Part shown: positions 3,747-49,766 of the stretch, piece after piece
Numbering within the stretch: the stretch's first letter is position 1
How the letters are laid out: each line of letters opens with the position of its first letter
NCBI GenBank assembly: GCA_019873625.1
Contig: JAIOAW010000015.1
Location: forward strand, 1-64,000
Length of the DNA stretch: 64,000 nucleotides
Direction: 5' to 3'
From: Chloroflexota bacterium
GTDB taxonomy: Bacteria > Chloroflexota > Anaerolineae > UBA1429
Notes under the pieces: model-generated
The model's input: only the letters and a program-made list of their open reading frames with translations
Told to the model about the DNA's origin: nothing
Databases searched by the model: none
Program-made: the position numbers and the translations under genes

Positions 3747-5915
3747 ATGCCCGAACTCTATGAACAGGTCCCGCCGGCCTCCTGCCACCGCTTCGAGGCC
3801 GTGCCCGATGACCTCTACGCCGTGCCGGTGGAGAACCTCGCGCGCCTCTATTGGCTCATCGCGCTCATCCGCGCCTTTGAAACGGCCGTCCTCGCCCTGA
3901 AAGACGAGAACCTAGTGCACGGGCCGGCCCATACAAGCATTGGCCAGGAGGCCGTGGCCGCGGCGGTGGCCGTTTCGCTCAGGCCAAGCGATCTCATCGC
4001 CTCGACGCACCGCGCCCACGGTCATTTTCTAAGCAAAGCCATCCTTTACTATGCGCCGGAGGGTTACTCGCCCCTGCGCGATGCGCCCACACCGCCTATG
4101 CGCGAGGCCGTTTACCGCACGTTGGCCGAAATTATGGGCCTGAAAGACGGCTGGTGCGGTGGGCGCGGCGGCTCGATGCACCTGTATGACCGCGCTTCCG
4201 GCAACTTGGGGTCGAACGCCATCGTAGGCGGGGGCATTCCCCTCGCCACGGGCGCGGCCTGGGGAGAACGCCTCCAAGGGCGCGATACGGTGGTCATCTC
4301 CTTTTTTGGCGATGGCGCCATCAACCAAGGGTGCTTCCACGAGGTGGCCAATATGGCCGCCCTGTGGCGAATTCCCATCCTCTATCTGGTGGAAAATAAC
4401 CTTTACGCCGTGGGCACCTCCACGCGCGAATCCTCCTTTGTAGAGGATTTGGCCCTGCGGGCCATCGGCTACGGCATCGAAAGCCTCATCGTGGATGGGA
4501 TGGACCCCGTGGCCCTCTATCTCGCCTTGCAGACCATCGTGCCCACCTTGCGCCGCCAGCCCAGGCCCTTCCTCCTGGAGGCCAAAACCTATCGGCACGT
4601 CCACCATGCCGGGAGCCTCCCCGGCAGCGCCTTCGGCTACCGTTCCAAAGAGGAGGAGGCCTTTTGGAAGGCGCGCGACCCGTTGATCACCTTCCCCCAA
4701 CGCCTGCAAGAGGCCCACCTCTTGAGCGATGGCGCACTCAAGAGGGTGCAAGAGGGCGCTGAGGCCCTGGTGAACGAGGCCCTGGTGCGCTGCACTGAGG
4801 TGGTCGAGGGCAAGCGCACCATCCCGGCCGCGCTTTGGCCGGACCCCAAAACGGCCGCTGAAGGCCTGCGCGGGCCAGATCCACAGGGCGTGCGCTATAT
4901 CGAGCGCGAAGAGATCGCCCTGCGCCCGATGACACTCGTCGAGGGGATTGCCCTGGCCATCCGCCGGGCGATGGAACGGGACGCGCGCGTCATCGTCTTG
5001 GGAGAGGAGGTGGCCAACCTGCGGGGCGGCGCCTACGGCGCCACGCGCGCCGTGGTGGAGGACTTTCGCAGCCGTTTGTTCAACACGCCCATCTCCGAGG
5101 CGGGCTTCTGCGGCATAGCCGGCGGGGCCGCCGCCGTGGGGATGCGCCCCATCGTCGAGGTGATGTACCCCGATTTCGCACTGATGGCCTCGGACCAACT
5201 GTTCAACCAAATCGGCAAACTCCGCCATATGTACGGGGGCAAGGCGCGCTTCCCCGTCATCTTGCGCACGCGGGTGGGCATCGGCTTTGGCTACGGTGGC
5301 CAACATTCGATGGACCCCTGCGGCTATTTCGCCCAATTCCCGGGGTGGCGGGTGGTGGCCCCTTCGAATGCCTTCGATTACATCGGCCTCTTTAACACGG
5401 CGCTGAGGATGGAGGACCCCATCCTTTTCGTCGAGCACGGGCAGTTGTACAACGAACCGGGCGAAGGCCCCGCCGAGGACCTCGATTATTGCGTGGCCTA
5501 CGGCAGAGCGCGCATCGTGCGGCCGGGGAACGATCTCACCGTGCTCACCTATATGACGGGCGTGCGCCTATGCCTACAAGCCGCAGAACACCTCGCTCAG
5601 GAGGGGATCAAGGTCGAGGTGCTCGATTTGCGCACCGTGGACTATTGGGGGATGGATTACGCCGCCATCGGCGAGAGCCTGAAAAAGACGGGCGCCGTGC
5701 TCATCGTCGAGCAGGCCCCGCGCAGTATGGGCATCGGCGCGCGCCTGGCAGAAGAGATTCAGGCTCGCTGGTTTGACTGGTTGGATGCCCCGGTGGCCCG
5801 CCTCACCGCGCTCGACGTGCCTCCGCCCGTCTCGCGTGTGCTCGAAGCGGCCGTCTTGCCGGATTTAGCGCGCGCGGAAGAGGCGATGCGCCGGGCGGCG
5901 CGAAGGGAACGCTGA
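3747..5915 (+). CDS. 2-oxoacid dehydrogenase E1, fused alpha and beta subunits (thiamine diphosphate-dependent)
   Basis: The protein should decarboxylate a 2-oxoacid (pyruvate, branched-chain oxoacid) or acetoin and pass the acyl group to a lipoyl E2. Residues about 25-370 are the E1 alpha fold: GDGAINQG near residue 188 followed some 25 residues later by ENN is the thiamine diphosphate motif. Residues about 390-715 are the transketolase-like beta fold, with EISEAGFCGIAGGAAAVGMRP and a C-terminal domain. Normally these are two chains; here they form one 722-residue chain. The ATG at 3747 has GAGGA six bases before it; longer upstream readings would cross the terminator. No E2, E3 or lipoyl gene is nearby, so the substrate is open. 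It is followed 28 bases later by an Fe-S flavoprotein gene. Confidence 0.9.
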   Translation: MPELYEQVPPASCHRFEAVPDDLYAVPVENLARLYWLIALIRAFETAVLALKDENLVHGPAHTSIGQEAVAAAVAVSLRPSDLIASTHRAHGHFLSKAILYYAPEGYSPLRDAPTPPMREAVYRTLAEIMGLKDGWCGGRGGSMHLYDRASGNLGSNAIVGGGIPLATGAAWGERLQGRDTVVISFFGDGAINQGCFHEVANMAALWRIPILYLVENNLYAVGTSTRESSFVEDLALRAIGYGIESLIVDGMDPVALYLALQTIVPTLRRQPRPFLLEAKTYRHVHHAGSLPGSAFGYRSKEEEAFWKARDPLITFPQRLQEAHLLSDGALKRVQEGAEALVNEALVRCTEVVEGKRTIPAALWPDPKTAAEGLRGPDPQGVRYIEREEIALRPMTLVEGIALAIRRAMERDARVIVLGEEVANLRGGAYGATRAVVEDFRSRLFNTPISEAGFCGIAGGAAAVGMRPIVEVMYPDFALMASDQLFNQIGKLRHMYGGKARFPVILRTRVGIGFGYGGQHSMDPCGYFAQFPGWRVVAPSNAFDYIGLFNTALRMEDPILFVEHGQLYNEPGEGPAEDLDYCVAYGRARIVRPGNDLTVLTYMTGVRLCLQAAEHLAQEGIKVEVLDLRTVDYWGMDYAAIGESLKKTGAVLIVEQAPRSMGIGARLAEEIQARWFDWLDAPVARLTALDVPPPVSRVLEAAVLPDLARAEEAMRRAARRER

Positions 5916-6555: not shown

Positions 6556-7421
6556 GCGGGGCGCACCCCTGCGACGCCCACCATCCCAGCGCCCGAATGG
6601 ACCGAGAGGCCCGCGCCGAGTTCGACGATGAGCCTTTCCGGCGGGCAGGGGAGGCGCGCGCAGAGTTGCTCGGCGAAGGCTTGGGCCGCCTCCGGCACGG
6701 CCACGTGCAGAATGGCCAGCCGCTCCGGCGGCACGCCGTTGAGCGCCTGCGTTGTCAGTTCGATGACGCGCTCCCAAGCGCGGCGTTCGGTGCGCACCCG
6801 TTCCAGCATATCGAGTTTGCCCTCGCGCACGGTGAGGATGGGTTTGACGTTGAGAAGGGTGGCCATCCCCGCGGCCAGGTAGCCCACCCGGCCGCTCATC
6901 GCCAGGTATTTGAGCGTGGCCAGCGAGGCATAGAGGAACGAACGCTCCCCCACATCGCGGGCGCGCGCTTCGGCCTCTTCCAAGGTGGCACCCGCTTGGG
7001 CGGCCTCCGCGGCGGCCAGGGCCATAAACCCTTGGGCCATCGAGAGCGTGCGTGAGTCGAGCACGCGGATGGGACGGCCGCGCCAAGGCCCTTCTTCCAA
7101 GGCTTGCGCGGCCACCAGGGCGGCATTATATGTGCCGCTGATGACGCTGCTCACGCAAATGCAGAGGATGGCCTCGGCCCCCTTGGCAAAAGTCTCTTCA
7201 AAGGCGCGTTGAAAATCGCCGGGCGAGGGGGCGGCGGTGGTGGGCAGTTTGCCCTCGCGATCCACGCGGGCGAACACTTCGCCATCGCCGATTTCGATGC
7301 CGGAGCGCAGAGTCTCTTCGCCAAAGTTCACGAGGATCGGCACGAGGCCGATGCCGTACCGCGCGGCGAGGTCAAGGGGCAGGCTGGAATCCGTATCCGT
7401 GATGACGGCGAGGCGAGGCAT
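6552..7421 (-). CDS. DegV family fatty-acid-binding protein
   Basis: DegV/FakB proteins bind a fatty acid and, in FakAB systems, present it to a kinase for phosphorylation. The N-terminus LAVITDTDSSLP and the segment LPTTAAPSPGDF are the two ligand-binding signatures; the GRVGYL segment near residue 190 is also typical. Length 289 matches the family. The ATG at 7421 was chosen because AAGGAGG precedes it; the longer reading from 7472 lacks one. No FakA kinase gene is visible. The gene ends in a four-base overlap with the convergent flavoprotein gene. Confidence 0.92.
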   Translation of the reverse strand: MPRLAVITDTDSSLPLDLAARYGIGLVPILVNFGEETLRSGIEIGDGEVFARVDREGKLPTTAAPSPGDFQRAFEETFAKGAEAILCICVSSVISGTYNAALVAAQALEEGPWRGRPIRVLDSRTLSMAQGFMALAAAEAAQAGATLEEAEARARDVGERSFLYASLATLKYLAMSGRVGYLAAGMATLLNVKPILTVREGKLDMLERVRTERRAWERVIELTTQALNGVPPERLAILHVAVPEAAQAFAEQLCARLPCPPERLIVELGAGLSVHSGAGMVGVAGVRPA

Positions 7422-41939: not shown

Positions 41940-42458
41940 CTAGCCCTCGAAGAAAGGCAGTTCCTTCTCGTCAAAATACCAGACGCCGTTCGTCTCTAGG
42001 AACTCGAGCGTCTTTTGGAGAAAAGCATAATGCTTATCCTCCGCTTTGGCAAGAAAGGTCCACATCTCCTTCTCGTGGGGCGTGGCCGCCTCGTTGGCCG
42101 CTTGGGTGTAGGCCTCAAACCCCCGCACTTCGAAATCCATGGCCATTTTGAGGGCCTGCTCATCCGTAAAATCGGGCGGGATGAGTTGCTCCGCGGCCTT
42201 GGCCTCCGGGAAGATCGTCGTGGGGTCTACCGTCCCGGCCAGGGCGCGCGCCTCATCCAACGTGACGCAGCCCTTCCCCTGCGTAACGGCGGCATACTCC
42301 CCACAGAGGATCTCGAGGTGCGTTTGCTCCTCTTTCACCAGGCTCTCGAACACGCGTTTGCCGTCTTCCGCCTGGGTGCGCGCGGCAGCCTGCTCATAAA
42401 AGCGCATCCCCCAAAGTTCGGTGCTCATCCCCTTTTTCAAAACGTCTAGAACGCTCAT
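41940..42458 (-). CDS. Ferritin-like (rubrerythrin-type) protein
   Basis: A 172-residue four-helix-bundle protein. TELWGMRFYEQAAARTQ, FESLVKEEQTHLEILCGEY, MAMDFEVRGFEAYTQAANEA and WTFLAKAEDKHYAFLQKTLEFL give the paired helices with Glu and ExxH metal ligands of ferritin-like/rubrerythrin proteins. It lacks a rubredoxin domain, so electrons must come from elsewhere. It likely reduces peroxide or oxidises iron. It has no encapsulin targeting peptide. It is the last gene of the block before the terminator. AAAGGAG precedes the ATG. Confidence 0.85.
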   Translation of the reverse strand: MSVLDVLKKGMSTELWGMRFYEQAAARTQAEDGKRVFESLVKEEQTHLEILCGEYAAVTQGKGCVTLDEARALAGTVDPTTIFPEAKAAEQLIPPDFTDEQALKMAMDFEVRGFEAYTQAANEAATPHEKEMWTFLAKAEDKHYAFLQKTLEFLETNGVWYFDEKELPFFEG

Positions 42459-42483: not shown

Positions 42484-42981
42484 CTAAACCCAGCCGCTCT
42501 CGCGCGCGATGGCCTCATAGTTGGCCATCAGCAGGTTAAAATGCGTCATTTCCGCGCCGGCTAGCCAGGTGTACATCCGCTTGCCGGCCTCGTCCTCCGT
42601 CTCGATTGCGGCGTGTCGGTACAGGTCGTAACTCCTGATCTCATTTTCCAGCGCGATGTGCAGGGCATCCAACTCGCTCCTCGAGGTCCTCACCTGCTCG
42701 GCCGCCTTGCCCAAATCTGGCGGAAAGATCTTGGCTTGCAGGTCAATCGCCGGCGCTTCGAGATCGGGCAAAAGGACGTAGCGCCCCGAGCCTTCCATCG
42801 TATGGAGTTGCCGCACGATCATCTCCTCGTGCATCCGCTCATTATCCGCCAGCGAAAGGAACGTCTTGCGGCAGCGCGCATCCCGCACCTCTTCGGCAGC
42901 CTTGAGGTAAAAGGCACGCCCCTCGCGTTCCAGTTTCAGCGCCTGGCTCAAGGCGGTCAAGGCTTTGTCTCTATCCGTCAT
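42484..42981 (-). CDS. Ferritin-like (rubrerythrin-type) protein
   Basis: A 165-residue ferritin-like protein related to, but distinct from, the next gene downstream. ALSQALKLEREGRAFYLKAAEEV and FLSLADNERMHEEMIVRQL form the first pair of metal-binding helices, and ALENEIRSYDLYRHAA with LAGAEMTHFNLLMANYEAI the second. No rubredoxin domain or cargo peptide is present. AAGGAGGG precedes the ATG at 42981. It follows the glutaredoxin-PDZ gene by 84 bases and ends 25 bases before the next ferritin-like gene. Confidence 0.85.
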   Translation of the reverse strand: MTDRDKALTALSQALKLEREGRAFYLKAAEEVRDARCRKTFLSLADNERMHEEMIVRQLHTMEGSGRYVLLPDLEAPAIDLQAKIFPPDLGKAAEQVRTSRSELDALHIALENEIRSYDLYRHAAIETEDEAGKRMYTWLAGAEMTHFNLLMANYEAIARESGWV

Positions 42982-43065: not shown

Positions 43066-43578
43066 TCAGAATTCGAGCACCCCCAAACGGCTCTCGGTGC
43101 CACGCACATATTCCACGGGCACCCTCTGCCCCGGCTTGAGCCGCGCCAAAAGGCCCTCCAGATGGGCCGCATCGCGCACGCCCTGCCCGGCCAGGCTTGT
43201 GATGACATCGCCTACCCGCAGCCCGGCGCGTTCGGCCACGCCGCCCGGCGTAACGCGCCCAATATACGCCCCCGTATGCACCGCACAGCGGCCCTGGGCC
43301 GCCATCTCGGCGGCATCGGCCACAGCCGCGCCCAGGCGCGGGCGCGCCTTTTGGGCCAAGAGGGCGTCCAGCCGGGCGCGATCGAACCCGATGACGGCCT
43401 GGCCATCAATCACCGTCACCGGCACCCCATATTGGCCCGTCAGGCGCACCATCTGCGCCGCCGCCTCGGCATCGGCCGACACGTCGTACTCCCGAAAGGC
43501 AATCCCCCGGCGTGAAAGATACTCTTTCACCTGATGGCAGTAAGGTCAAGTGGGCGTCGTATAGACGATCACCTCCAT
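43066..43578 (-). CDS. Selenocysteine-containing glutaredoxin fused to a PDZ domain
   Basis: Reading from the ATG at 43578 gives MEVIVYTTPT, then TGA at 43546-43548, then PYCHQVKEYLSRRG. The TGA sits exactly at the first Cys of the glutaredoxin CPYC motif, so it most likely encodes selenocysteine (U11, with Cys14). The glutaredoxin fold covers about residues 1-78, with the cis-Pro loop YGVPVTVIDGQAVIGFD. Residues about 85-170 are a PDZ domain (GRVTPGGVAERAGLRVGDVITSL). Total 170 residues. It begins 10 bases after the 2-oxoacid:ferredoxin oxidoreductase beta gene and should be cotranscribed. It probably reduces thiols or selenyl-sulfides of partner proteins held by the PDZ domain. A frameshifted or dead gene is the alternative; the intact downstream frame and the hairpin after the UGA argue against it. 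Confidence 0.88.
43512..43530 (-). promoter_or_regulatory. Candidate bacterial SECIS hairpin of the glutaredoxin gene
   Basis: On the minus strand GTGAAAGA pairs perfectly with TCTTTCAC, with GTA at the apex, or AGTAT if the last pair opens. It begins 15 bases after the UGA, and the apical GU lies about 24 bases downstream, within the range known for bacterial SECIS elements. Confidence 0.7.
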
Positions 43579-43588
43579 CGCACACCCC

Positions 43589-44464
43589 TCACACGTTTTC
43601 TCGCACCAATTCGCGGTATTCCTCGAGCGGCCGCACCCACAAAGGCTGATTCACCAGCGGCCCCGCCAGGAGAGAGGCCACTTGCTCTTCGTAAGAGGGC
43701 ACCTCTTCCGTGCGATAGATGATCCCCGTGGGGATGCGCTCCCCGCCGGGGAACTCGAGCGCCCGTCGCAGAGCCGCCTCCCGATCCGTCGGGTCGTGCC
43801 CTTCGTCTTCCACTTTGTAGATGCGTTCGCGGTACCAGTCGTAATCCATTTGGCGGTTGAAACTCACGCAGGGCTGCATCACGTCTATGAGCGCATAGCC
43901 CCGGTGGTGCATCGCCTCGGCGATGATATCGGCCAAGCCGTTCACATCGAGCGAGAACCCTCGCGCCACAAAGGTCGCCCCTTGGCTGATGGCCAGCGCC
44001 AGCGGCGAGAGGGGCCGCTCCAGCGCGCCGCGGGGAGATGTCTTCGTGATGAACCCCAGGCGGCTGGTGGGGGAATATTGCCCCTTGGTGAGACCGTACA
44101 CATGGTTATTCTCCACGAGGTCCACCAGCCCGATGTTGCGCCGCGCCGCGTGGAGAAAATGGTTGCCCCCCTCGCCATAGCCATCGCCATCCCCATGGAC
44201 GACGATGACCTTCATCGCCGGGTTGGCCAGTTTGAACCCCGTGGCCACGGCGAGCGCCCGGCCGTGCAGGGTGTTCAAACCGTTGATATGCATATAGTCG
44301 TTCATCTTGCTGCCGCAGCCGATGCCCGTCACCATCATAATCTCTTGCGGCGTGAGGCCGGCCTTGACGAACCCCCGTTTGAGGGCGTTCCAAATGCCAT
44401 AATCGCCGCAGCCCGGGCACCAGGTGGGGCGAATCTCATTGGTAAAATCAGCAACGGTAACCAT
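43589..44464 (-). CDS. korB: 2-oxoacid:ferredoxin oxidoreductase, beta subunit
   Basis: The thiamine-diphosphate subunit that oxidatively decarboxylates a 2-oxoacid with CoA and reduces ferredoxin. RPTWCPGCGDYGIWNALKRG, TGIGCGSKM and VIVVHGDGDGYGEGGNHFLHAARRNI with NNHVYGLTKGQ (thiamine diphosphate motif) are diagnostic; Cys pairs bind the [4Fe-4S] cluster. Length 291. The gene begins four bases after the alpha subunit stop. It could use 2-oxoglutarate, pyruvate or another oxoacid. Confidence 0.94.
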   Translation of the reverse strand: MVTVADFTNEIRPTWCPGCGDYGIWNALKRGFVKAGLTPQEIMMVTGIGCGSKMNDYMHINGLNTLHGRALAVATGFKLANPAMKVIVVHGDGDGYGEGGNHFLHAARRNIGLVDLVENNHVYGLTKGQYSPTSRLGFITKTSPRGALERPLSPLALAISQGATFVARGFSLDVNGLADIIAEAMHHRGYALIDVMQPCVSFNRQMDYDWYRERIYKVEDEGHDPTDREAALRRALEFPGGERIPTGIIYRTEEVPSYEEQVASLLAGPLVNQPLWVRPLEEYRELVRENV

Positions 44465-44468
44465 CTCT

Positions 44469-46208
44469 CTATGACCTTTCCAAATGCGCCAGGACGTAAT
44501 CCGGCGTAAAGCCGCGCCCGTCGAACTTTAAAATCTGCTCTTGCACCTCGATGCCCCCATAGGCGTGGAGCATAAAGGCGAACTGCCCCGTGGCGTTATT
44601 TTCCACCGAGACGATGCGCTTCGCTCCCCCCAGGGCCTCCTGCGCGGCCTCATGGGGGAAGGGCCACACATCCACAAAGTGTACCATATTCGTGGGGTAA
44701 CCCTGCGCGTTGAGCGTCTCCATCGCCTCATACACGGAGCCAAAGGGCGAACCCCAACTCACCAAGGTGCATTCGGCCTCCGCAGGCCCGAAGCGAAACG
44801 GCGGGCGCATCTTGCCCCGCGCGCCATCCAATTTGCGCAAGCGCTTGCGCGCCATCATCGTGGCCACCTGGGGGTCCTCGGTGATGTGCCCATTTTCCAG
44901 ATGCTCATCGCTCGTGGAGAGGTACACGGCCTTGGGGCTGGAGCCAGGCAAGGCCCTGGGGGAGATGCCATCGGGCGTGTTGGCATAGCGATGATAGACC
45001 TCCATCGCCTCCAAGGCCTCGGCGGTGAGCAACTTGCCGCGGTCTATCTCCACGCGCGCAGGGTCGAACGAGGCCGGGTCGCAGGTAAAGAGCGAAGTCG
45101 CGTTATAGTGATCGGAAATCACGATCACCAGGCATTGGTACATCTCGGCCAGGTTGAAGGCGCGGTAGCCGCAGACGAAGGCCTCTTCGGGCGTGTGCGG
45201 CGCGAGCACGATGCGCGGGAACTCGCCGTGCCCCGCGTGGAGCGCCATCAGGAGGTCGCTCTGCGCCGTGCGCGTGGCCATCCCCGTAGAAGGGCCAGGG
45301 CGCTGAGCCAAGTAGATGACGAGAGGAACCTCGATCATCGCCGCCAGGCTGATGCCCTCCACCATCAGGTCGAACCCGCCGCCGGAGGTCGCCGTCATCG
45401 CCCGCACCCCCGCGTGCGCCGCGCCGATGCACATATTCACGGCGGCGATCTCGTCCTCGGCATGTTTGACCACCAGCCCCCAGCGATCCGCATGGCCCGC
45501 CATATACTCGAGGATGGAGGTAGCCGGCGTCATCGGGTAGCCGGCCATAAACTTGCAGCCGCCCATTATGGCGCCCATCGCAAAGGCGCGGTTCGCATCG
45601 AGCGTTAGGCGTGGTGGCGCGGGGCGCGCTGGAACGCGCCAGGGCAAAGCGAGGTTGTAGCGTTCGCGCAGGGCATCGGCCGTCGCCAGGGCCACGCGTC
45701 GGTTGGCCTCTACGATGGCGCCCCCTTTGGCGCCAAAGTTATCGGCGATGACGCTCAAGATGTGCTCCAAATCGAACCCCATCGCCGTCGCAGCGGCGGC
45801 CAACGCGCCCGTGTTGACCATCACGCGGCTGCCCAATTCCTCGGCAATCTTGATGAGGGGGAGCGAAAAGAGGCGCACATCCTTGCCCTCCAAAAGCGCC
45901 GGATCAAAAGCCAGGCCCTCGTCGGCGATGATCACGCCTCCCGGCACAAGGCGATCCACATGGCGGCGCACGGTTTCGCCGTCGAGGGCGATGAGAAGGT
46001 GCACCGCCTCGCGCGTAGCGCGGACGGGTTCATCGCTCACGCGGATGGTAAAAAAGTTGTGCCCGCCGCGAATGCGCGAGTAATAATCGGGCACGGCAGC
46101 AACAAAAAGGCCGCCCCGCGTGAGGGCCGTGGCAAACCCCGCGCCGCTCGACTCCACGCCCTGGCCGGCCTCTCCGCCAATGCGCAGGCTGATATCAATA
46201 TTCGGCAT
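44469..46208 (-). CDS. korA: 2-oxoacid:ferredoxin oxidoreductase, fused gamma-alpha subunit
   Basis: The partner of the beta subunit. Residues about 1-190 are the gamma domain (SLRIGGEAGQGVESSG, YYSRIRGGHNFFTIRVSDEPV), and residues about 205-579 the alpha pyrimidine-binding domain (MGGCKFMAGYPMTPATSILEYM) and the C-terminal swivel region. Length 579 is normal for the fused KorA form. The ATG at 46208 has AAAGGAG six bases upstream. A gap of 137 bases separates it from the cupin gene; no delta ferredoxin subunit is adjacent, so the electron acceptor is a separate ferredoxin. Confidence 0.93.
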   Translation of the reverse strand: MPNIDISLRIGGEAGQGVESSGAGFATALTRGGLFVAAVPDYYSRIRGGHNFFTIRVSDEPVRATREAVHLLIALDGETVRRHVDRLVPGGVIIADEGLAFDPALLEGKDVRLFSLPLIKIAEELGSRVMVNTGALAAAATAMGFDLEHILSVIADNFGAKGGAIVEANRRVALATADALRERYNLALPWRVPARPAPPRLTLDANRAFAMGAIMGGCKFMAGYPMTPATSILEYMAGHADRWGLVVKHAEDEIAAVNMCIGAAHAGVRAMTATSGGGFDLMVEGISLAAMIEVPLVIYLAQRPGPSTGMATRTAQSDLLMALHAGHGEFPRIVLAPHTPEEAFVCGYRAFNLAEMYQCLVIVISDHYNATSLFTCDPASFDPARVEIDRGKLLTAEALEAMEVYHRYANTPDGISPRALPGSSPKAVYLSTSDEHLENGHITEDPQVATMMARKRLRKLDGARGKMRPPFRFGPAEAECTLVSWGSPFGSVYEAMETLNAQGYPTNMVHFVDVWPFPHEAAQEALGGAKRIVSVENNATGQFAFMLHAYGGIEVQEQILKFDGRGFTPDYVLAHLERS

Positions 46209-46768: not shown

Positions 46769-47542
46769 TCACCCGAGGATGCAGATGGCCCCCGCCCGCT
46801 TGACGCGCAGGGCCAACGTCTCAAAGATGCGGAAGCGATGATCCAAGCCCTCGTTGCCCAGGTAGGCTGTTACCACATCTTGGCCGACCACGAGGTCCAT
46901 ATTCCAGGCCTGCGGGCTGAGCACCAAGGCCCGACCTTCCGGAAGGCCCGTGGCTTGGAAGATGCCCACCTTGACCAACCTTTCCACCATCTCGATTTCG
47001 CGGCGGCCGGCGCTCATCAAACTGGCCAAACGGGCATACATCCCCGGGCTGAGGACGAGGGCATACGGCCCGTCGTACCCCGCTTCGAGCATCTTGGCGG
47101 TGGCCGCGGCTATTGCCGCAAAGGGGCCGCCCAGGGTATCCCAATCTCCCAAGGGGGCCGAGCAAGTCGCGGCCTGCATCAGGCCCTCCAAGATGAGCGC
47201 ATCCTCCGCCTTGGCCAGTTTGGTAGCCGCGATGGCCACCGCGCCCAGGTCGAGCGCCCAGGGGCTGGCGCTCTCCATGGCCAAATGCCGGGCCTTGAGC
47301 ATAAACTCGGCGGCCAGTTCTTTGAGGGGGAGATAGATGGCCTCTTTGGCCACGGCGGCGCCCTCCGCTTCCTCAAACCCAAAGACGGGCGCCTGCTCCA
47401 CGCCCCAACCGAGCGGCCCCACGAGCGTCAGAAAGCGGCGCCCCACCAAGTTCTTGCTAACCACGGTAACGACCATTTCATCAATGCGTGCCCATACCTC
47501 GGCGCTCAAAGGCGCCGCCTCGCGCATCAAGTAACTACTCAT
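46769..47542 (-). CDS. Encapsulin shell protein (family 1)
   Basis: Forms an icosahedral protein nanocompartment with the HK97 phage-capsid fold. The N-terminus REAAPLSAEVWARIDEMVVTV, followed by LVGRRFLTLVGPLGWGVEQAP, then EAIYLPLKELAAEFMLKARHL, matches the family 1 shell protein. EDALILEGLMQAATC, GPYALVLSPGMYARLASL, LVVGQDVVTAYLG and the C-terminus ALRVKRAGAICILG complete the fold. Length 257 is close to other encapsulins. It is immediately downstream of a tandem ferritin gene that ends in a cargo peptide, which strongly supports the assignment. Confidence 0.94.
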   Translation of the reverse strand: MSSYLMREAAPLSAEVWARIDEMVVTVVSKNLVGRRFLTLVGPLGWGVEQAPVFGFEEAEGAAVAKEAIYLPLKELAAEFMLKARHLAMESASPWALDLGAVAIAATKLAKAEDALILEGLMQAATCSAPLGDWDTLGGPFAAIAAATAKMLEAGYDGPYALVLSPGMYARLASLMSAGRREIEMVERLVKVGIFQATGLPEGRALVLSPQAWNMDLVVGQDVVTAYLGNEGLDHRFRIFETLALRVKRAGAICILG

Positions 47543-47577
47543 CGTGCCTCCTTATAAAATCTGTGGATCAAGTTGAC

Positions 47578-48522
47578 TTACGGCTTACCCAACAGGCTCC
47601 CCACCGAGGGAATCTCGGGCGGGGGCTGGGGCTTATCCTCCTCCGGCGAGGCCGCTTCCTGTGCCTCGCGCACCTCCTTGAGGAGGTAGGAAAACTCGCC
47701 ATCGTGAAAGATCTCGTGGTCGCGGATGCGCTCCACGAGCGCACGCACATCCTCCTCTTCGATTTCGGGGAGTTGTGTGCTGTAGGCCTTGGTCACCTCG
47801 CGTTCCACGGCGATATCCGCCTCGAGGTTTTGCACGGGGTCCCGGCTCAAAAAGAGTTCCGTGTGGCTCATATCGGGCTGTGCGCCCTTGCCAGCCACCT
47901 CCTCCGAGAGCCAGCCCATATGCTGCATCTCGTTGATGGCCGCGTTCTGCAGGCCCTCGGCCAGCTCCATATCCTCCGCCACGAAAGAGTGGTACAGGTA
48001 TTGCAGAATCACCGTGTACTCGTGGCGCACCCCTTGGTTGAGGATCTCCATCAGCCGCGCGGGCGGCCCAGCGGGCGCCGAAGGCGCCCCCGCGCCGGCC
48101 TCCACGGCCTCCCCTTGGCCGGCGGCCTCGACCAGCCCCTCAAAAATGCCCTTGTGGGCCTGCTCATCATGCAGAATGCGCGAGAGGACGAGCCGCACGT
48201 GTTCATCCTCAATCGCCTCAATATGCGCACGATATTGGGCGATGGCCGTCTCTTCCAAGCCCACATCTTTGCCCATCTGCTCGGCCGGCGCGGCGCGGGA
48301 GAAATCCACGGGGTCGCGCTTGAGGCTCGGCTCCCCGCCCAACTCCACGATGAGGTCGGCCAGCCAGTCGAAGTGGCGCATCTCATCGCGGGCGATGGCC
48401 TCGATTTCCGGGGCCAAATCCTCACGGCCCATCGTGTAGGCATGGTAGAGATATTGGATAATGGCCTGATGCTCGCCCTCCATATCCCTCTGTAGCAGCG
48501 CGATGATCTGTGCTCTATCCAT
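47578..48522 (-). CDS. Tandem ferritin-like encapsulin cargo protein
   Basis: A 314-residue protein with two ferritin-like domains in one chain. Domain 1, residues about 5-140: GEHQAIIQYLYHAYTMGRED, IARDEMRHFDWLADLIVELGG and ILHDEQAHKGIFE. Domain 2, about 155-285: RHEYTVILQYLYHSFVAED, INEMQHMGWLSEE and IRDHEIFHDGEFSYLL. Each domain keeps Glu/His ligand sets for a di-iron site. After a Pro/Glu-rich linker the chain ends PSVGSLLGKP, which matches the encapsulin cargo-loading peptide (hydrophobic-Gly-Ser-Leu). The shell gene is 35 bases downstream. It should store iron or remove peroxide inside the compartment. Confidence 0.93.
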   Translation of the reverse strand: MDRAQIIALLQRDMEGEHQAIIQYLYHAYTMGREDLAPEIEAIARDEMRHFDWLADLIVELGGEPSLKRDPVDFSRAAPAEQMGKDVGLEETAIAQYRAHIEAIEDEHVRLVLSRILHDEQAHKGIFEGLVEAAGQGEAVEAGAGAPSAPAGPPARLMEILNQGVRHEYTVILQYLYHSFVAEDMELAEGLQNAAINEMQHMGWLSEEVAGKGAQPDMSHTELFLSRDPVQNLEADIAVEREVTKAYSTQLPEIEEEDVRALVERIRDHEIFHDGEFSYLLKEVREAQEAASPEEDKPQPPPEIPSVGSLLGKP

Positions 48523-48557: not shown

Positions 48558-49766
48558 CTACGTGCGCGCCAGGGCCATCAGGTCAAACCCTGGCCGAAAA
48601 AGATCCTCCGCATAGGGTGAAACGTCCACCCCTTTGGCGATGAGTTGGTTGATGGCGCGCACATCCGCCCGATCTCCCAAGAGGATGGCCCCTACGAGGC
48701 GCCCCTCGCGCAGCACGGCCTTTTTGTAGACGCCGTTTTGGCTGAAGCGCACTTCCGTGTACCCCGGCGCTTGGGGGTTCACTTCGCCGATGGAGGTCAA
48801 GTCAATCCCGCTCACTTTGAGCGTCGTGCTGGGGACGATCTCCTCGTAGCGCACCTCCGCCTCACCAATGATTTGCGAGGCGGCCACGCGCGCCTGCGCC
48901 AGGGCAGCCGGGATAATCCCCCACGTGACGCCGCGAAACTCGGCCGCATCGCCCACGGCATAGATGCCCTCCGCCGAGGTTTGCATCCGATCATCCACCA
49001 CCACGCCGCGCCCGCAGGCCAGGCCCGCCGCCTGGGCCAAGGCGATGTTCGAACGAACCCCCGCCGAGATGATGACCATCTCCGCCGGCAATATCCGGCC
49101 GCTTTGGAGGACGACCTGCTTCACGTGGCCATCCCCCTCGATGGCCGCACAGCCCTCGCCGATGATAAACCGCAACCCTCGCGCCTCTAGCCTCGCTTGG
49201 AGCACGGCGGCGCCCTCGGCATCCAATTGGCGCGGCAACAGGCGCGGCATCACCTCGATGACGGTGATCTCCAAGGCGTGCGCGAGAAGCGCCGAAGAGG
49301 TATCCAATCCCAAGAGGCCCCCGCCGAGCACGACCGCCCGTTTCGCTTGGTGCGCCGCTTGGCACAGGGCCAGCCCATCGGCCAGGGTGCGCAGGGTATA
49401 GACGCCGGCCAAGTTTGCCCCAGGGATGGGCGGCACCCAAGCATGCGCCCCGGTGGCGAGCACCAAACGGTCATAGGCCATCACGTCGCCATTTTGAAAG
49501 AGGACCTGCCGCTTCTCTGGGTAAACCGCCTCGACGCGGCAGTTTAGCCGTAAGGTAATGCCCCGTTGGGCATACCATTCGGCGGGGAATTGGGGCATCT
49601 GTTCGGGGTTGACCTGGCAACCCACCAGGTCAATGAGCCGAGGGCGGGGATAGTATAGATATGGCTCGTCCGAACACAGGACGATCTCCACACCCTGGCC
49701 GTGTTCCGCGATGAGGCGAGCCGCCGTGGTGCCGGCTACGCCATTCCCTACGATGATGACCCTCAT
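48558..49766 (-). CDS. FAD-dependent NAD(P)H:rubredoxin oxidoreductase-like protein
   Basis: A 402-residue pyridine nucleotide-disulfide-type oxidoreductase. RVIIVGNGVAGTTAARLIAE is the FAD-binding Rossmann motif; VVLGGGLLGLDTSSALL is the NAD(P)H-binding motif; GIYAVGDAAEF is the second FAD motif. There is no CxxC redox pair, as in rubredoxin reductases and the nitrite reductase FAD domain. A rubredoxin gene is just upstream on the same strand, so it likely reduces that rubredoxin. GGAGG lies before the ATG at 49766. It is followed 35 bases later by the encapsulin cargo gene. Confidence 0.9.
   Translation of the reverse strand: MRVIIVGNGVAGTTAARLIAEHGQGVEIVLCSDEPYLYYPRPRLIDLVGCQVNPEQMPQFPAEWYAQRGITLRLNCRVEAVYPEKRQVLFQNGDVMAYDRLVLATGAHAWVPPIPGANLAGVYTLRTLADGLALCQAAHQAKRAVVLGGGLLGLDTSSALLAHALEITVIEVMPRLLPRQLDAEGAAVLQARLEARGLRFIIGEGCAAIEGDGHVKQVVLQSGRILPAEMVIISAGVRSNIALAQAAGLACGRGVVVDDRMQTSAEGIYAVGDAAEFRGVTWGIIPAALAQARVAASQIIGEAEVRYEEIVPSTTLKVSGIDLTSIGEVNPQAPGYTEVRFSQNGVYKKAVLREGRLVGAILLGDRADVRAINQLIAKGVDVSPYAEDLFRPGFDLMALART

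Follow-up and report, generated by a model that had tools for sequence, protein, structure and literature searches.

Bacteria decode an in-frame UGA codon as selenocysteine (Sec) when SelB-GTP carrying Sec-tRNA(Sec) binds the GU apex of an mRNA hairpin, the SECIS element, while the ribosome is positioned at the UGA, so that Sec is inserted into the growing protein. In seleno-redoxins of the type considered here, the selenolate acts as the nucleophile and a cysteine as the resolving residue. Sec-containing glutaredoxins are already known from published selenoprotein lists (PMC13188914, PMC9312934) and are also covered by the Uxx-star families of NCBIfam. One example with a crystal structure is Grx1 of Clostridium oremlandii (PDB 7c10), a native selenoprotein of glutaredoxin fold with catalytic Sec in a U(or C)PXC site that has been proposed to reduce the selenoprotein MsrA (PMC7642778). 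At the level of sequence families, the Uxx-star model NF041212 accepts both Sec and Cys as the first residue of the active site and spans only the 70-residue redoxin, and the YruB family TIGR02196 was defined on CxxC proteins without a PDZ domain. The sole PDZ-containing redoxin in the selenoprotein lists is the Trx7/PDZ (seleno)protein (NF041199), a family with the motif CxxU in which a PDZ domain is combined with a domain of thioredoxin fold (PMC13188914, PMC9312934).

Here, we analyzed a stretch of 64,000 nucleotides from a Chloroflexota bacterium (contig JAIOAW010000015.1; hereafter the window) that belongs to a genome of 2.76 Mb with 97.6% completeness. It contains a gene in which a glutaredoxin is fused to a PDZ domain (Grx-PDZ) and UGA takes the first position of the redoxin active site. 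Judging from sequence, we consider it very probable that this gene encodes a selenoprotein with a SECIS element inside its coding region, composed of a YruB/Uxx-star glutaredoxin and an HtrA-type PDZ domain, because Sec and Cys codons exchange at this position, the hairpin is kept together with the UGA and shows compensatory changes, and Sec/Cys switches track its presence. As far as we have checked, this Sec-Grx-PDZ architecture is new and widespread in Chloroflexota; a literature search with poor coverage of subscription journals found no published description of such a fusion. Since the genes pass the cut-off of NF041212, the NCBI pipeline may already label them as Uxx-star.

The Sec-Grx-PDZ gene and its product

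The Sec-Grx-PDZ gene extends over positions 43066..43578 on the minus strand and comprises 170 codons plus a TGA stop codon (43068-43066), beginning with an ATG at 43578 that is preceded at 6 nt by a probable ribosome-binding site, GAGGGG (43585..43590, minus strand), assigned from its sequence. With the in-frame UGA at residue 11 (43546..43548, minus strand) read as Sec, the product starts with MEVIVYTTPTUPYCHQVKEYLSRRGIAF... and has 170 amino acids and a computed mass of 18.1 kDa. The codon of the resolving Cys14 (43537..43539, minus strand) is an invariant alignment column. The sequence-only reading, which named no strand, had seen the UGA in the place of the first Cys of a CPYC motif and had described the segment before it as a proper first glutaredoxin strand with a ribosome site; both observations are borne out, as residue 11 and the coordinates are right, the strand is conserved, and GAGGGG is present at 43590-43585. 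The same reading had warned that ordinary gene calling would lose the active site, and mechanical ORF finding indeed starts at a GTG at 43530 and yields 154 amino acids that lack it.

The glutaredoxin domain covers residues 3-74 (43357..43572, minus strand) and reaches 71.5 bits with PF00462 in a profile search. It scores above the curated cut-offs of TIGR02196 (YruB family; 93.8 vs 88.55) and of NF041212 (Uxx-star (seleno)protein; 70.7 vs 66) and below that of TIGR02181 (glutaredoxin 3; 53.7 vs 90). Approximately residues 78-164 (43087..43347, minus strand) form the HtrA-type PDZ domain, for which the Pfam scores all exceed the gathering thresholds (PF17820, 43.2 vs 27; PF13180, 42.9 vs 27; PF00595, 38.7 vs 23.2). 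TIGR02196, NF041212, and the PDZ models were matched by all 59 Grx-PDZ homologues tested, the PDZ residues G83 and G103 are invariant across 59 members, and the PDZ domain is retained in nearly all members of the family.

An AlphaFold2 model computed from aligned proteins of the window and the loci reached a mean pLDDT of 95.9 and a pTM of 0.68, and because of the latter value the placement of the glutaredoxin relative to the PDZ domain is less sure. Foldseek matched the model to HtrA/DegP PDZ domains and to C. oremlandii Grx1, whose crystal structure agrees with it to 0.8 Å over 73 columns at 45% identity. Unlike the fusion protein, Grx1 is a single-domain protein without PDZ that comes from another phylum and has a selenoprotein, MsrA, as its proposed client. 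Similarly, the PDZ part lies outside the NF041212 model, and HtrA/DegP/DegQ proteins share the sequence and fold of the PDZ domain but not the absence of a protease domain. Trx7/PDZ proteins, in turn, are built from a Thioredoxin_7 redoxin with CxxU where our protein has UxxC, and their model extends over 390 positions; with a score of 28.8 against a cut-off of 300 that comes from the PDZ part alone, the Sec-Grx-PDZ protein falls outside this family. No obvious export signal is present because the N-terminus is the first redoxin strand, and the protein is probably cytosolic.

Codon exchange and the hairpin behind the UGA

We searched for homologues in 396 genomes of the class, 400 genomes of the phylum, and one named collection and read 77 Grx-PDZ genes in detail. 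The sequence-only reading had called the fusion unusual, but it is not a one-off: It recurs across Chloroflexota, in roughly 37/396 class genomes and roughly 40/400 phylum genomes. Codon 11 is TGA in 52 of the 77 genes, TGC in 16, TGT in 8, and GAT in 1 divergent paralogue, and neither TAA nor TAG was found at this position in any of them. Alignment with Cys-containing homologues therefore reveals an exchange of Sec and Cys at exactly codon 11 (52 TGA vs 24 TGC/TGT, n = 76), and since TGA recurs there in 52 homologues, the UGA is not a sequencing error. On a maximum-likelihood tree from which codon 11 and the hairpin residues had been left out, 10 Sec/Cys changes are required. Supported branches force at least 7 of them, and the count does not give their direction. 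One Cys-type gene (L083 in genome G095, near 7012) carries a fossil hairpin with 7/8 pairs in which the loop reads TTT instead of GTT and the GU apex is lost, suggesting that at least 1 switch went from Sec to Cys. Such replacement has been described for other families (PMC1794560).

The divergent paralogue (L068 in genome G002, 5004-5450) has Asp (GAT) at the Sec/Cys position in the context TRTDPTC and is perhaps a redox-dead copy. Genome G649 contains two Grx-PDZ copies (L143 and L144), one with UGA and one with Cys, the latter of which has a TAG in the linker between the two domains and may be split or decayed. In genome G091, a UGA redoxin (L080) is very similar to that of the window (MDVTVYTTRT-U-PYC) in a match that spans the glutaredoxin part only. 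A second subfamily of UGA glutaredoxins is unfused and has the motif YTQPG-U-xFC (L074, L075, L076, L077, L078, L057 from Deltaproteobacteria, and L091 at 1860-2072 on the minus strand); its members have a GUGAAAGAGUUUCUUUCAC-type hairpin with a spacing equal to that of Grx-PDZ genes. In genome G005, one member of this subfamily lies ~5.6 kb from a Cys-type Grx-PDZ gene. Across 297 genomes from the phylum of a deltaproteobacterial record, a search without positive control found no Grx-PDZ at E <= 1e-22.

In the window gene, the UGA is followed after 15 nt by the hairpin GUGAAAGA-GUA-UCUUUCAC (43512..43530, minus strand) with 8 perfect pairs; its apical loop lies 23 nt from this codon. The sequence-only reading had likewise described a perfect 8-bp hairpin with a GU apex at SECIS distance. 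The published model of bacterial SECIS elements specifies a loop of 3-9 nt that is located 16-37 nt from the UGA, a stem of 4-16 bp, a G within the first two loop positions that is followed by G or U, and a minimum free energy of at most -7.5 kcal/mol (PMC13188914). With a 3-nt loop (GUA), a stem of 8 bp, a conforming apex, and a spacing of 23 nt, our hairpin lies within these structural limits. Its energy narrowly misses -7.5 kcal/mol in isolation (-7.1 kcal/mol) and passes this value only with flanks (-8.7 kcal/mol for the centroid and -12.5 kcal/mol for the minimum free energy structure). An Rfam scan of the window gave no match. The hairpin is not a chance feature: The two strands of the window contain 1530 TGA triplets, and the UGA of the Sec-Grx-PDZ gene alone precedes a perfect 8-bp hairpin with G[T/G] apex at such spacing. 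A genome-wide hunt through the 2.76 Mb for a TGA with a comparable hairpin likewise found the Sec-Grx-PDZ gene and no other.

Among the homologues, the hairpin is present at its fixed position in 52/52 UGA genes vs 1/24 Cys genes (Fisher p 1.4e-18 with kinship ignored), where a UGA gene was counted if it showed at least 7 pairs in the 8-bp/3-nt form (44 genes) or at least 6 in a 7-bp/4-nt register (8 genes). Across the 44 aligned UGA genes, 96.9% of hairpin cells are paired as compared to 39-68% for slid partners, and the GU apex is invariant despite its G falling on a third codon position. Compensatory changes are evident from 31 cells in three pairs in which both sides have changed, vs 9.1 +/- 4.2 in shuffles (0/500 as high), and an unguided RNAalifold prediction arrives at precisely the same structure. 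The encoded amino acid motif KE(F/Y)LS does not account for the pairing because draws of synonymous codons pair less in UGA genes (7.7 pairs observed vs 4.9 expected on average in 29 genes); the corresponding values for 16 Cys genes are 4.4 and 4.0. For the window gene alone, 8/8 pairs are reached by random synonymous codons with p = 0.009. The UGA sisters L096 and L097 differ at 66/510 nt and at 0/19 hairpin nt, and among the 37 nt that distinguish the Cys sister L095 from L096, 6 are found within these 19. Tree-independent Sec/Cys pairs agree with the presence of the hairpin in 6 cases, oppose it in 0, and tie in 1 (p = 0.03). UGA and Cys genes are told apart by the fixed-position test but not by how strongly the 48 nt behind codon 11 fold (Mann-Whitney p = 0.26), since GC-rich sequence will fold in either case. 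Taken together, these comparisons of aligned genes indicate that the hairpin is held under RNA-level selection, and in UGA genes only.

The sequence-only reading had named the absence of all Sec-decoding genes as grounds against itself. All of them are present in the genome, that is, tRNA-Sec (78.4 bits, anticodon TCA), SelA (565 bits), SelB (337.5 bits), and SelD (335.8 bits; L019, G000:C14:34872-35810), and the selD gene carries its own in-frame TGA at the usual Sec position (LAKAAG-U-GGK). Since SelA is common in the class (318/396 genomes, 80%), the machinery is a necessary but not a decisive finding, and for the same reason we dropped the idea that Grx-PDZ is specifically linked to SelA (rough Fisher p = 0.14). 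No full SelA was seen in 2 genomes with a UGA-bearing Grx-PDZ gene, G215 and G169, which are 82 and 87% complete, respectively.

Two alternatives to Sec insertion at this codon have to be weighed. The UGA could be a true stop or have arisen by pseudogene mutation or as a sequencing error, in which case a restart at GTG 43530 would produce a PDZ protein whose redoxin is broken. TGA does work as an ordinary stop in the window, where it ends KorB, the encapsulin gene, the cupin gene, and the Sec-Grx-PDZ gene itself, and the mechanical 154-amino-acid ORF corresponds to such a restart. However, a stop would hardly recur as TGA, and never as TAA or TAG, at codon 11 in 52 genomes behind a conserved first glutaredoxin strand and ahead of a hairpin that is selected at the RNA level in UGA genes only, which makes this explanation extremely unlikely. 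Alternatively, code reassignment or a suppressor tRNA could have the UGA translated as Trp, as happens in some bacteria, or as Cys, the homologous residue here. The use of TGA as the stop codon of several genes in the window, among them KorB and the Sec-Grx-PDZ gene, argues against such reassignment, as do the canonical tRNA-Sec, SelA, SelB, and SelD, and a codon-specific downstream hairpin would be needless; we thus give it hardly any credence. The selenoprotein reading is supported by the Sec machinery, the Sec/Cys exchange in 76 homologues, and the covarying SECIS hairpin.

Gene neighborhood and possible clients

In the order of transcription, genes for an FAD/NAD(P) oxidoreductase, a ferritin-like protein, an encapsulin, a cupin, KorA, and KorB precede the Sec-Grx-PDZ gene, and two rubrerythrin-like genes and a DUF554 gene follow it. 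The beta subunit of a 2-oxoacid:ferredoxin oxidoreductase (KorB/PorB; 43589..44464, minus strand; TIGR02177, 349.8 bits) is encoded 10 nt upstream by a gene that ends in TGA, next to the alpha subunit with fused gamma domain (KorA; 44469..46208, minus strand; TIGR03710, 625.5 bits). Of the two rubrerythrin-like proteins (both PF02915, minus strand), one is encoded directly downstream (42484..42981) and the other at 41940..42458. Farther upstream are a family 1 encapsulin shell protein (46769..47542, minus strand; NF041155, 198.8 bits), a weakly conserved neighbor, and the FAD/NAD(P) oxidoreductase with a rubredoxin-reductase C-terminal domain (48558..49766, minus strand; PF07992, PF18267), a candidate reductant. 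The encapsulin adjoins a 314-amino-acid ferritin-like protein with two matching ferritin-like stretches (46769-48522 for both, minus strand) that is a possible encapsulin cargo.

Within the class, KorB is found upstream of Grx-PDZ in 18/34 loci (within 60 nt in 14/34), KorA in 15/29, and the FAD oxidoreductase in 13/29, while a rubrerythrin-like gene lies downstream in 21/32 loci and encapsulin is nearby in 5/29. None of these neighbors was seen in the loci from other classes, in counts where absences may be too many because ORFs were called mechanically. The setting of the Grx-PDZ gene is therefore preferred, not obligatory, and the KorB/rubrerythrin-like setting in the class accompanies Sec and Cys forms alike. 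The redox block that the sequence-only reading had seen around this gene holds up only in part: The association with KorB (14/34) and rubrerythrin-like genes (21/32) holds within the class but does not extend to the other classes, and a firm link to encapsulin was dropped in view of its low frequency.

At the molecular level, SelB-GTP with Sec-tRNA(Sec) would recognize the GU apex when the ribosome has reached the UGA, and would thereby allow insertion of Sec11. By analogy to characterized seleno-glutaredoxins, the Sec11 selenolate would attack an oxidized client in a mixed bond that Cys14 would resolve, and the selenenyl-sulfide would be re-reduced by a small thiol or by a flavoprotein that uses NAD(P)H. 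Candidate reductants are the nine Pyr_redox_2 proteins in the genome, and the literature held nothing useful on how YruB-type redoxins are reduced. The PDZ domain might dock the redoxin on partners via their C-terminus or an exposed strand, the likeliest of which in the window's class would be the oxidant-sensitive 2-oxoacid:ferredoxin oxidoreductase and the adjacent rubrerythrin-like proteins; that KorAB or the rubrerythrin-like proteins are clients in this class is possible but doubtful. We accordingly put forward as a tentative idea a Chloroflexota-wide family of PDZ-targeted selenoredoxins whose PDZ domain could deliver the selenium center to specific clients and that, in one class, may help to protect or repair an oxygen-sensitive 2-oxoacid:ferredoxin oxidoreductase along with proteins of the rubrerythrin type.

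There is about an even chance that the protein is a selenoprotein for which neither the PDZ domain nor the gene block has a special role, i.e., a general seleno-redoxin that serves as a reductant for peroxiredoxin or MsrA or as a metal ligand and whose neighbors are an accident of class-level synteny. The lack of KorB and rubrerythrin-like neighbors in the loci from other classes (0/38) fits this possibility, and so do the role proposed for C. oremlandii Grx1 in MsrA reduction (PMC7642778) and a 2026 review that allows metal ligation by the Uxx-star family (PMC13188914). A mere accident would less readily explain KorB at 60 nt or less upstream and a rubrerythrin-like gene downstream in so many class loci of Sec and Cys forms alike, or the retention of a PDZ domain with invariant glycines in nearly all members.

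The Sec-Grx-PDZ gene adds a phylum-wide selenoprotein architecture whose active site is cut off from annotation by gene callers. With around ten Sec/Cys switches on one tree, the family constitutes a natural experiment on the fate of the SECIS hairpin and on what Sec gains a redoxin, and, as its PDZ module suggests, a seleno-redoxin of this small size may be directed to chosen clients.
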